NCBI GenBank assembly: GCA_017303895.1
Contig: JAFLBF010000002.1
Span: 186,001 to 250,000 of the forward strand
Length of the DNA stretch: 64,000 nt
Reading direction: 5' to 3'
Origin: Bacteroidota bacterium
GTDB lineage: Bacteria; Bacteroidota; Bacteroidia; 2-12-FULL-35-15
Positions 57,712 through 60,142 of the stretch are shown piece after piece. Each line of letters starts with the position of its first letter. The first letter of the stretch is position 1. Under the pieces are notes generated by a model, which saw only the letters and a list, made by a program, of their open reading frames with translations, made no database searches and was not told the DNA's origin. The position numbers were made by a program, and so were the translations under genes.

Positions 57712-58341
57712 TTATTCCAGAAACCCTTTTCCTTTCAGGATATTCGGGATGCATTTTTCAATACGTGAAATACGTGTGGCAGATTGTTTGGCGGATGAGA
57801 AATGAAGTAAGTATGCTTTTTGTCGCCCCGGTGTTAAGGCTTCAAATGCTTTTTTTAAAGCGGGTATTGCTTTTAGTTTGCTTTTAAATTCTTCGGGAAC
57901 AGTATATTCTTCTAATTTTTTAGGTGTTACTTTTAATCCTGCTTTTTCAATTTCAATGGCTTCAAAAACATAGGCTTTTAAAACTGCTTCCAGTTTTTGA
58001 ATGGTCTTCACATCCGTAAAACGGATCACTTTAGCTGATTGTGAATTTTCCCCGGGAAATTGTAAGATCTTCTCTTCATCTTGCAGTAAAGCTCCTTTGA
58101 AAAAACTCAATACACAGTTTTCCTTAAAAGCGCCAATAATAATGATGTTATGTTTTTGGTAAGTATACACCGGAACGCCCCATTTGATCTCTTCGTTCAA
58201 GCCACAATCGAGTGCTATTTTTCGAAGCAGTTTTAATTCCTGTGTCCATTTATGCACTTTGCATTCGGGTGTTCCACCTAGTTTGCATCGTCCGCAGCCT
58301 TCTGCTAAATAGTTATCTACTTGTGGATTGGTACTGATCAT
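57712..58341 (-). CDS. DUF1801 / YdeI-OmpD-associated protein
   Basis: 209 residues from the ATG at 58339-58341. The open frame continues upstream through the tRNA-Leu gene and its repeats, so the longer form (to 58566) is not real. The N-terminal half is DUF1801-like (WTQELKLLRKIALDCGLNEEIKWGVPVYTYQ, only part diagnostic; the KWG-P-Y core is typical). The C-terminal part VPEEFKSKLKAIPALKKAFE and LTPGRQKAYLLHFSSAKQSATRISRIEKC matches the YdeI/OmdA group. A CxxC pair (CGRC) occurs near residue 15. Function unknown; homologues are tied to stress or polymyxin tolerance. Confidence 0.85.
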   Translation of the reverse strand: MISTNPQVDNYLAEGCGRCKLGGTPECKVHKWTQELKLLRKIALDCGLNEEIKWGVPVYTYQKHNIIIIGAFKENCVLSFFKGALLQDEEKILQFPGENSQSAKVIRFTDVKTIQKLEAVLKAYVFEAIEIEKAGLKVTPKKLEEYTVPEEFKSKLKAIPALKKAFEALTPGRQKAYLLHFSSAKQSATRISRIEKCIPNILKGKGFLE

Positions 58342-58400
58342 TTTTGGTTCAATGAATGAATAGTCTAAAATAAATAATTTTTGTAGAAGGGGAGTGAGTA

Positions 58401-58551
58401 TAAAATAAAAAAGCCCTCCAATGGAGAGCTTTTTATTGCGGATGAAGGTCCTTCCCGAATCTCCACTACGTTTCGTTCGGGACAGGCTTCTCGTAAAGTG
58501 ATTAAAATAAAAAAGCCCTCCAATGGAGAGCTTTTTAAGTGCGGATGAAGG
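58401..58551. repeat. Duplicated terminator plus tRNA-Leu 3' end
   Basis: A 35-nt stretch at 58401-58435 is repeated exactly at 58503-58537 (core GCCCTCCAATGGAGAGC hairpin). After two or three differing bases both copies continue with GCGGATGAAGG (58438-58448 and 58541-58551); the second is the 3' end of tRNA-Leu. Between them lies a CCCGAA / TTCGGG hairpin at about 58454-58481. Confidence 0.8.
58509..58537 (-). terminator. Terminator of tRNA-Leu
   Basis: Hairpin with stem GCCCTCCA / TGGAGAGC flanked by A- and T-runs, one mismatch; read on the reverse strand it directly follows the tRNA and ends in T6. A second copy at 58407-58435 forms a tandem terminator. Confidence 0.75.
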
Positions 58552-58621
58552 GACTCGAACCCCCACGCCTCACGGCACCAGATCCTAAGTCTGGCGCGGC
58601 TGCCAATTACGCCACATCCGC
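58540..58621 (-). tRNA. tRNA-Leu (anticodon TAG)
   Basis: 82 nt without encoded CCA. Acceptor GCGGATG / CATCCGC, anticodon stem CCAGA / TCTGG with loop CTTAGGA (anticodon UAG), a long variable arm as in class II tRNAs, and T-loop GGTTCGAGTCC. Confidence 0.97.
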
Positions 58622-58792
58622 GTTTTGATTGAATTGGACGGCAAATATATATTTTTTCTGCCAATTGGAATAGTTTTTAGATATTTTTTTGTTCTGCGGG
58701 ATTATAAATATCAACATTCTCAAGCATTTCGTTGATAACATCTTTTTAAGGAAAAGCGAATTAATTCTATTTTTGTTTGAGATTTTTATTTT

Positions 58793-59692
58793 ATGCTTAG
58801 AATTGATCCAAAGGAGGTAAAAACTTCTGTTTTACATAGTTATTTGCTGGGTGCTGTTGCGCCACGCCCCATCGCTTTTGCCAGTACAATTGATAAGGAT
58901 GGCAATCCGAACCTGGCGCCATTCAGTTTTTTTAATGTGTTTAGCGCCAATCCGCCCATTGCTATCTTTTCTCCTGCACGTAGCGGTAGAACAGGCATTA
59001 CCAAACATACTTACGACAATGTGAAAGAGGTTCCTGAAGTAGTGATCAATGTGGTGAATTACGATATGGTACAGCAAATGAGTTTGGCAAGTACTGAATA
59101 TCCAAAAGGGGTTAATGAATTTGTAAAAGCGGGCTTTACACCTGTTGCTTCCGAAATGGTAAAGCCATTCAGAGTGAAAGAATCGCCTGCTCAATTGGAG
59201 TGTAAAGTAAAACAGGTGATCGAACTGGGCGAACAGGGTGGAGCTGGAAATCTCATTATTTGTGAGGTGATATTGATGCACATCGATGAAAAAGTGCTGG
59301 ATGCCAATCAAATGATCGACCCGAATAAAATTGATCTGGTGGCACGTTTGGGTGGAAACTGGTATAGCCGCACCAATGGAAATGCGTTGTTTGAAGTAGC
59401 TAAGCCGCTTCTTAATTTAGGAATTGGAGTGGATGCTATTCCTGATCATATCCGTCATTCGGATGTGTTAACGGGAAATAATTTAGGTCAGTTAGGAAAC
59501 ATTGAAAAACTTCCTACAGAAGCCGATATTATGCATTATCTGGCATCGGGTGCTATCAATGAAGTGTTTGAATTATATGGAACCGATCGCAAAAAGTTAG
59601 AACATCAATTGCACCATGTAGCCAAAGGCTTATTGGAAAACAATAAAGTAGAAGAAGCATGGAAAGTATTACTTTCTGTTAATCATAAATAA
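58793..59692 (+). CDS. Flavin reductase-like FMN-binding protein
   Basis: 299 residues. Residues about 1-200 form the split-barrel flavin-binding domain: APRPIAFASTIDKDGNPNLAPFSFFNVFSANPP (FMN loop; partial) and a conserved VINVVNYDM strand. The C-terminal about 90 residues are helical and less conserved. Such proteins bind FMN and serve as flavoredoxin or NAD(P)H:FMN reductase. The electron partner is unknown. It starts a small forward pair with the DUF3127 gene 28 bp downstream. Confidence 0.88.
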   Translation: MLRIDPKEVKTSVLHSYLLGAVAPRPIAFASTIDKDGNPNLAPFSFFNVFSANPPIAIFSPARSGRTGITKHTYDNVKEVPEVVINVVNYDMVQQMSLASTEYPKGVNEFVKAGFTPVASEMVKPFRVKESPAQLECKVKQVIELGEQGGAGNLIICEVILMHIDEKVLDANQMIDPNKIDLVARLGGNWYSRTNGNALFEVAKPLLNLGIGVDAIPDHIRHSDVLTGNNLGQLGNIEKLPTEADIMHYLASGAINEVFELYGTDRKKLEHQLHHVAKGLLENNKVEEAWKVLLSVNHK

Positions 59693-59719: not shown

Positions 59720-60088
59720 ATGGACATCACAGGAATTTTAAAAGTAAAAGGACAAACACAACAAGTATCAGAAAAATTCAAAAAGAGAGAGATCGTAGTA
59801 ACGGATAATTCATCACAATATCCTCAACACATTTCTTTTCAGTTGACACAAGATAAATGCAGCATCATCGATAATTACAATGTAGGTGATGAGATCAAAG
59901 TTCATTTTAATTTACGTGGAAGAGAGTGGACCAGCCCACAAGGTGAAACAAAATACTTCAACTCATTAGAAGCATGGAGAATTGAAGGAAATGCAAGTGC
60001 AGTAGCATCAAATAACAGCGGAGCAGGTATGAATGATGTAGCAGCTACTTTCACTGCAGCATCGCAGGAAGATGATCTTCCGTTCTAA
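59720..60088 (+). CDS. DUF3127 OB-fold protein with SSB-like acidic tail
   Basis: 122 residues. The N-terminal 88 residues match DUF3127: ITGILKVKGQTQQVSEKFKKR, DEIKVHFNLRGREWTSPQGE and YFNSLEAWRIEG, which reads as a small OB fold. A Gly/Ala/Asn/Ser linker leads to the last six residues EDDLPF, very like the DDDIPF end of single-stranded DNA-binding protein that recruits repair and replication enzymes. DNA binding has not been shown from sequence. The shape is that of a mini-SSB. Confidence 0.88.
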   Translation: MDITGILKVKGQTQQVSEKFKKREIVVTDNSSQYPQHISFQLTQDKCSIIDNYNVGDEIKVHFNLRGREWTSPQGETKYFNSLEAWRIEGNASAVASNNSGAGMNDVAATFTAASQEDDLPF

Positions 60089-60106: not shown

Positions 60107-60142
60107 AAATTAAAAAGGGTGCGAATGCACCCTTTTTAATTT
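60107..60142. terminator. Bidirectional terminator
   Basis: Perfect 16-bp stem AAATTAAAAAGGGTGC (60107-60122) / GCACCCTTTTTAATTT (60127-60142), GAAT loop, between the DUF3127 gene and the convergent YwqK-type gene whose stop codon it overlaps. Confidence 0.92.

Follow-up and report, generated by a model that had tools for sequence, protein, structure and literature searches.

The DUF3127 protein encoded in the window (the whole 64,000-nucleotide stretch of Bacteroidota DNA analysed here) is best read as a divergent, minimal member of the bacterial single-stranded DNA-binding protein (SSB) superfamily, which in cells would be an accessory SSB docking on the same partners as the canonical protein and in phages would be the phage's own SSB. 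The probability of this reading is put at roughly three in four. The fold of DUF3127, its kinship to SSB, the conservation of its C-terminal tip and the likeness of that tip to the SSB one, its near-universal presence in the class and its phage context were established computationally. The original prediction had proposed a nucleic-acid-binding protein that docks on SSB partners or competes with SSB, and this proposal is supported, having withstood all of the computational tests made.

The gene and its surroundings

The open reading frame on which that prediction rested was recovered at exactly the same coordinates (Table 1). Its product begins with MDITGILKV and ends with SQEDDLPF. The gene is probably co-transcribed with the flavin-reductase-like gene that precedes it, which, as far as shown, lies outside the SSB mechanism. 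The terminator-like palindrome is reported on the - strand by the scan, with one found against 0.2 in shuffles. Two - strand open reading frames of 284 and 99 aa (window 57712-58664) run into a tRNA-Leu gene (58539-58621, - strand); owing to this overlap, the starts chosen for them are probably wrong and the N-termini artefactual.

Table 1. Features of the DUF3127 locus, with positions in the window.
Feature	Position	Strand	Details
Flavin-reductase-like gene	58793..59692	+	Pfam Flavin_Reduct 2e-20; 27 bp upstream of DUF3127 gene
DUF3127 gene, SSB-like protein	59720..60088 including stop	+	122 aa, ATG start
OB-fold core, residues 1-90	59720..59989	+	AlphaFold2 (71 sequences) pLDDT 93-96; PDB matches SSB and PriB
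Variable disordered linker, residues 91-116	59990..60067	+	pLDDT about 51-58; high column entropy
C-terminal tip EDDLPF, SSB-type, residues 117-122	60068..60085	+	Conservation; of the same type as in genome's own SSB
Near-perfect palindrome and T-run, terminator-like	60107..60142		Between convergent DUF3127 and MORN-repeat genes

Family assignment and the OB core

A Pfam search placed residues 3-89 of the protein in DUF3127 (PF11325) with 97.3 bits (E=6e-28), above the gathering score of 27 bits. The canonical SSB family (PF00436) gave no match to the window protein at E up to 1, and its gathering score was thus not reached; two viral DUF3127 homologues attain 15-17 bits against this family, below the cut-off of 26. 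In PHROGs, residues 1-122 align with positions 1-117 of the 117 in phrog_4932, annotated as 'single strand DNA binding protein' (E 2.2e-37), and a weaker match was obtained with phrog_44 (SSB; 3e-6). The earlier statement that DUF3127 has no assigned role therefore holds for the Pfam entry, but not for phages, whose copies are labelled SSB in PHROGs (phrog_4932) and in RefSeq.

The sole other Pfam match of the 122-aa protein, a weak one to IF3_C (E 0.06), would suit an RNA-binding OB protein that has kept its SSB-like tail for another reason. OB folds often bind RNA. Such a role is nevertheless highly improbable, as DUF3127 genes of phages belong to modules for recombination and replication, and the matches listed by profile and by fold are SSB-type proteins.

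The single-chain AlphaFold2 model (71 sequences) consists of strands at residues 2-15, 21-29 and 36-43, a helix at 44-52 and further strands at 58-71 and 77-90, followed by a tail predicted to be disordered. All 50 matches listed by Foldseek against the PDB are SSBs or PriB, in agreement with the OB-fold-like domain proposed for this protein, which is confidently predicted. Structural alignment with VIA-align gave Z values of 11-12 across 79-99 residues to SSBs overall, for example Rim1 (Z 12.0, 90 residues, 3.0 A) and Salinibacter SSB (Z 11.9, 91 residues, 2.5 A), and values of 11.5, 11.4 and 11.3 to the PriB chains 3klw, 3en2 and 1woc, respectively. Rows differing by no more than 1 Z were regarded as ties, and fold alone thus cannot separate SSB from PriB. 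Mitochondrial SSBs and PriB reach Z values similar to those of bacterial SSBs, and a shared fold alone shows no function. In a viral structure library, DUF3127 proteins ranked first and phage SSBs next.

The tie in fold is what could be expected of a PriB-like replication-restart factor, that is, a small OB protein bridging PriA and the helicase loader, in which the tip would be the PriA contact. A PriA gene is indeed present in the genome, and PriB chains rank beside SSBs by fold. Sequence profiles, however, retrieve SSBs and not PriB, and PriB proteins are not known to carry an SSB tip, so that this role is considered unlikely.

Membership in the SSB superfamily is where the sequence profiles point. 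When PDB sequences were searched with a profile built from 71 homologues, D. radiodurans SSB came first (3e-8), ahead of Thermus SSBs (1e-3 to 2e-3) and of further SSBs with weaker scores; the first non-SSB rows appeared at E 0.09. The cores were also compared directly, with both the DUF3127 and the phylum-SSB alignments trimmed ahead of the linker lest the tip inflate the score. This comparison aligned 47 columns, which correspond to the second half of the OB fold, with a score of 30.6 (hhalign probability 69%, E 4.5e-5), against 16.4 for the best of 30 column shuffles and 11.9 for the reversed alignment.

The base-stacking aromatics of E. coli SSB are given as W40, W54, F60 and W88 in the section cited (PMC3991886). 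By sequence alignment, W70 of DUF3127 is the counterpart of W88 and is aromatic in 65 of the 71 homologues; the position of F60 is not aromatic in DUF3127, and those of W40 and W54 fall outside the 47 aligned columns. Further conserved positions among the 71 homologues are the aromatic ones F20 and W86 (71/71 each) and Y34 (aromatic in 68/71), and also K22 (65/71).

The linker and the C-terminal tip

Residues 91-116 read NASAVASNNSGAGMNDVAATFTAASQ, and the Gly/Ala/Asn/Ser linker described in the original prediction is thus real. Its flexibility is consistent with the predicted model, in which pLDDT is about 51-58 in this region and 93-96 in the core. Over 71 aligned homologues, mean column entropy rises from 1.84 bits in the core to 3.26 in the linker (residues 91-115) and drops to 0.83 in the tip.

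The protein ends in exactly EDDLPF, as first reported, and the suggested check on conservation of this hexapeptide was run. An acidic residue shortly before an [LVMI]PF end is kept in 133 of 138 cellular homologues (closed frames of at least 80 aa), and among representatives in 49/52 at <70% identity and 18/20 at <50%. Two of 225 rows (one open-ended, one of 53 aa) were left out of the count, as were L194 and L195, which repeat viral loci already counted. The cellular row L227 is a gene split into two frames, and the cellular copy L076, which continues seven residues beyond DDLPF, was scored as a miss. Among viral homologues, the acidic-[LVMI]PF end is present in 59/85; of the 26/85 that miss the strict tip, 11 are short tail-less forms. 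Other viral proteins end in variants that include DLPW, DLPY and DDPFS, or have no tail.

The genome's own canonical SSB (C30) ends in GDDLPF, and all of the tailed SSBs read in the phylum (31/31) end in DDLPF, so that DUF3127 bears the local spelling of the tip. The SSB of F. psychrophilum likewise ends in DLPF, according to the section cited (PMC3991886). The SSB-like plan originally attributed to the protein is borne out, with a predicted OB fold, a linker and a conserved tip of the phylum-SSB type. A second PF00436 gene in the same genome (C7:56973-57275; L003:1480-1818) encodes 112 aa without linker and tip.

Among the 108 cellular genes with a DDLPF end, each of the six Leu codons and four Pro codons is found at the tip, which indicates that the peptide is what is kept. 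The degenerate DNA pattern GANGANNTNCCNTTYTRR ([DE][DE]xPF-stop) has two sites in the 3.6 Mb genome, namely the ends of the DUF3127 gene and of canonical ssb; a reversed-pattern control occurs once in the whole genome. A chance origin of the tip was rejected on the basis of its conservation relative to the hypervariable linker, the codon variety and the genome-wide pattern count. Two genomes of family f14 encode DUF3127 proteins (L215:1489-1884 and L220:1375-1773) that end in NVDDE or DEEDEA and lack LPF, and the SSB read from one of these genomes keeps DDDLPF. Thus, the tip is not indispensable everywhere.

A tip that is more conserved than the core and is of the resident SSB's type may also be read as that of a competitor or decoy, which would hold the tip, bind ssDNA weakly and, by occupying the pockets of SSB partners, damp SSB-dependent repair or restart. 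We give this reading little credence. Phages without a detected canonical SSB carry DUF3127 beside annealase, exonuclease and primase genes, a context that suits an active SSB better, and the conserved aromatics F20, W86, W70 and Y34, together with K22, would suit a putative binding face.

Distribution and neighbours in cells

DUF3127 was found in 222/395 genomes sampled across the phylum and in 96/98 of the window's class, the latter a count of rows made by hand that includes the window's own genome; the two genomes of the class without DUF3127 are G292 and G391. Canonical SSB was found in 392/395 of the same genomes and in 220/222 of those with DUF3127, so that cellular DUF3127 is an addition and not a replacement. 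The missing SSB matches in the two remaining DUF3127 genomes (G024 and G220) are perhaps assembly gaps. In a test of restriction to the phylum, Bacteroides ihuae was the only one of 14 control genomes to match DUF3127. Matches titled Saccharibacteria and Nitrotoga (L056 and L091) probably represent mis-binned contigs.

The gene immediately upstream of DUF3127 encodes a flavin reductase in 73/80 of the closest cellular loci, and in 6/31 and 2/28 of the other cellular sets. The same arrangement recurs in a single distant genome from another family (L204), and the gaps are mostly <120 bp. The search for a conserved DNA-repair neighbour of the cellular gene found none, there being flavin reductase in part of the class and unrelated genes elsewhere. 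Similarly, a Pfam search on 87 neighbours from 57 divergent loci, picked by hand from 114 with mainly repeats from near relatives dropped, returned only scattered housekeeping families among the best 25 of 110 families. In one family, dnaN adjoins DUF3127 on the other strand in the first member. The idea of a genomic partner that would disclose the pathway was rejected, as no neighbour is conserved across the cellular sets.

In a tree of 72 cores, which is built on only 93 columns and leaves many forks open, 7 changes are required to account for the viral rows, and at least 3 of these fall on well supported branches. The gene has thus passed between cells and phages on more than one occasion. 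The tree divides into two deep subfamilies. The smaller (15 rows) has a shorter strand-4/5 hairpin and lacks phage members, and the larger (57 rows) holds the window protein and all phage members.

Phage copies

A tblastn search found DUF3127 in 127/50,697 phage records, most of them from phages of Flavobacterium, Polaribacter and Cellulophaga. In several cases, the product is a hypothetical protein in the GenBank original but is called 'single strand DNA binding protein' in the RefSeq version. The SSB assignment of phage copies is thus already known from PHROGs and RefSeq labels, and a DUF3127 hit in the SSB of a Pantoea phage is mentioned in the section cited (PMC8004638).

In Nonlabens phage P12024L, the gene order is Erf annealase, YqaJ exonuclease, DUF3127, two others and primase. 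Cellulophaga phage phi18:3 carries a RecT annealase gene about 1.4 kb upstream of DUF3127, and phage tooticki has genes for a primase/helicase and NinG downstream of it. The neighbours in phages Gundel_1 and Fpv5 are mostly hypothetical, with NinG or DNA polymerase nearby. Overall, 33 of the 85 viral loci have a YqaJ-type exonuclease and 20 have ERF, each cluster being named by one representative.

The SSB profile PF00436 exceeded its cut-off in 0/46 DUF3127 viral records, a count that lacks a host-matched base rate and covers records that are fragmentary or of uncertain completeness. These 46 are the records, among 80 viral loci, with contigs of about 23 kb or longer, and the two sub-threshold matches seen in them are the DUF3127 genes themselves. 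The genome's own SSB matched 2236/50,697 phage records by tblastn; most belong to other hosts, and phages of Bacteroides and Parabacteroides are among the matches listed.

The short tail-less viral copies (<=97 aa; L130, L133, L143, L148, L152, L164, L167, L170, L175, L182 and L183) have phrog_21613 about 1 kb upstream in 10/11 cases, against 6/74 of the others (p 3e-8; related phages, non-independent). ERF is nearby in 0/11 of the short copies and 20/74 of the others (Fisher p 0.06; related phages). Pairwise identities listed among the short copies range from 0.61 to 0.99. As these copies belong to related phages and are not independent, no conclusion is drawn on whether the tip tracks the annealase. 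One ERF-bearing locus has a DUF3127 copy that ends in LFGKQ and is tip-less.

Acidic-PF ends were also observed on phage primase-helicases of the phrog_239 type, proteins unrelated to SSB, in 68/80 related viral loci (open reading frames of L344-L422 and L166, e.g. L344:3917-5764). In the cluster first noticed, a stricter tip pattern is present in 9/13 members. DnaB-like helicases in three other loci end in acidic-PF as well. A tie between the helicase tip and DUF3127 was rejected, since the tip occurs in 25/29 loci with DUF3127 in the stretch analysed and in 43/51 without it. For phage T7, the sections cited describe acidic C-terminal tails of the gp4 helicase that contact the polymerase (PMC12593628) and an acidic tail on the SSB gp2.5 (PMC5686142).

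Proposed role of DUF3127

The OB fold of ~90 residues would bind ssDNA, probably as an oligomer, and the linker-borne copy of the tip (DDLPF in the phylum) would dock in Phe-accepting pockets of the partners that the main SSB uses, such as RecO and PriA. RecO and PriA both bind the SSB tip in E. coli. The two proteins, which the original prediction had named as partners, are encoded in the genome. Pockets that take the C-terminal Phe of SSB are described for RecG and other partners in the section cited (PMC10164576). By analogy with SSB, DUF3127 would bind ssDNA, oligomerise, dock and recruit its partners rather than inhibit them. Points that weigh against this reading are the failure to match PF00436, the incomplete retention of the stacking aromatics within the reach of the alignment, the lack of a conserved DNA-repair neighbour in cells, the loss of the tip in the two f14 genomes and the tail-less phage forms.

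In the cell, DUF3127 would be an accessory SSB beside canonical SSB, and either protein would display the same tip on the ssDNA that it binds. Docking tips would therefore still be available where DUF3127 makes up all or part of the coat. In phages of Bacteroidota, DUF3127 would be the phage's SSB and would feed ssDNA to the neighbouring annealase, exonuclease and primase-helicase. This role fits the case of phage HK620, whose Sak4 annealase, as described in the section cited (PMC5928155), cannot bind SSB-coated ssDNA unless the phage SSB has its last six residues.

In the open-access literature, one paper that mentions DUF3127 was found and none that mentions PF11325. What appears to be new concerns the cellular family: nearly all members of the class have it as a second protein of the SSB type, with the docking tip kept in the local spelling. 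A more general picture can be offered tentatively, and we would sooner doubt than assert it: ssDNA traffic in Bacteroidia may run on two tip-bearing SSBs with different OB cores, of which the second is nearly universal, ancient and shares every SSB-partner pocket, so that the 'one SSB hub' of E. coli would fail in most of the phylum. Phages would in addition have grafted the tag onto their primase-helicase, and the acidic-PF end would be a general replisome address label.

If the proposed role is correct, a domain found in almost every member of the Bacteroidia, among them major bacteria of the gut and the environment, would gain a testable role, and models of repair and restart built on a single SSB hub would need revision in this class. 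It would also mean that a second SSB retains the docking tail, in contrast to several known accessory SSBs from which it has been lost. What the tip does could be studied with natural controls, namely the phage forms without a tail and the family without a tip. Further, phage annealase and SSB could be rationally paired for recombineering in Bacteroidota.

Comparison with known systems

Canonical SSB, both that of E. coli and the genome's own, shares with DUF3127 the OB fold, a disordered linker of variable length and an acidic LPF/IPF tip, and the core profiles can be aligned over strands 3-5. The canonical core, however, has about 110 residues and that of DUF3127 about 90, and the TEWH block of SSB is without counterpart in the alignment. 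The PHROG 4932 SSB of Flavobacteriaceae phages is an end-to-end homologue, although it is phage-borne and some copies are tail-less.

PriB has the small OB fold in common with DUF3127 (Z 11.3-11.5), but the latter possesses a tail with the tip, which PriB is not known to have. Enc34 ORF6 (DUF2815) offers a parallel from phages, being a 'DUF' protein for which, in the section cited (PMC5686142), structure and gel shift established that it is an SSB and that its tail is acidic. Its fold is of the T7 gp2.5 type, whereas that predicted for DUF3127 is of the bacterial SSB type.

The SsbB and SsbC paralogues (SsbB of B. subtilis, SsbB and SsbC of S. aureus) are likewise extra SSBs beside the main one. 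As described in the section cited (PMC5945547), these three proteins are without the acidic tip, whereas SsbB of S. pneumoniae keeps it. DUF3127 departs from the tip-less form of B. subtilis and S. aureus and, like S. pneumoniae SsbB, keeps the tip.
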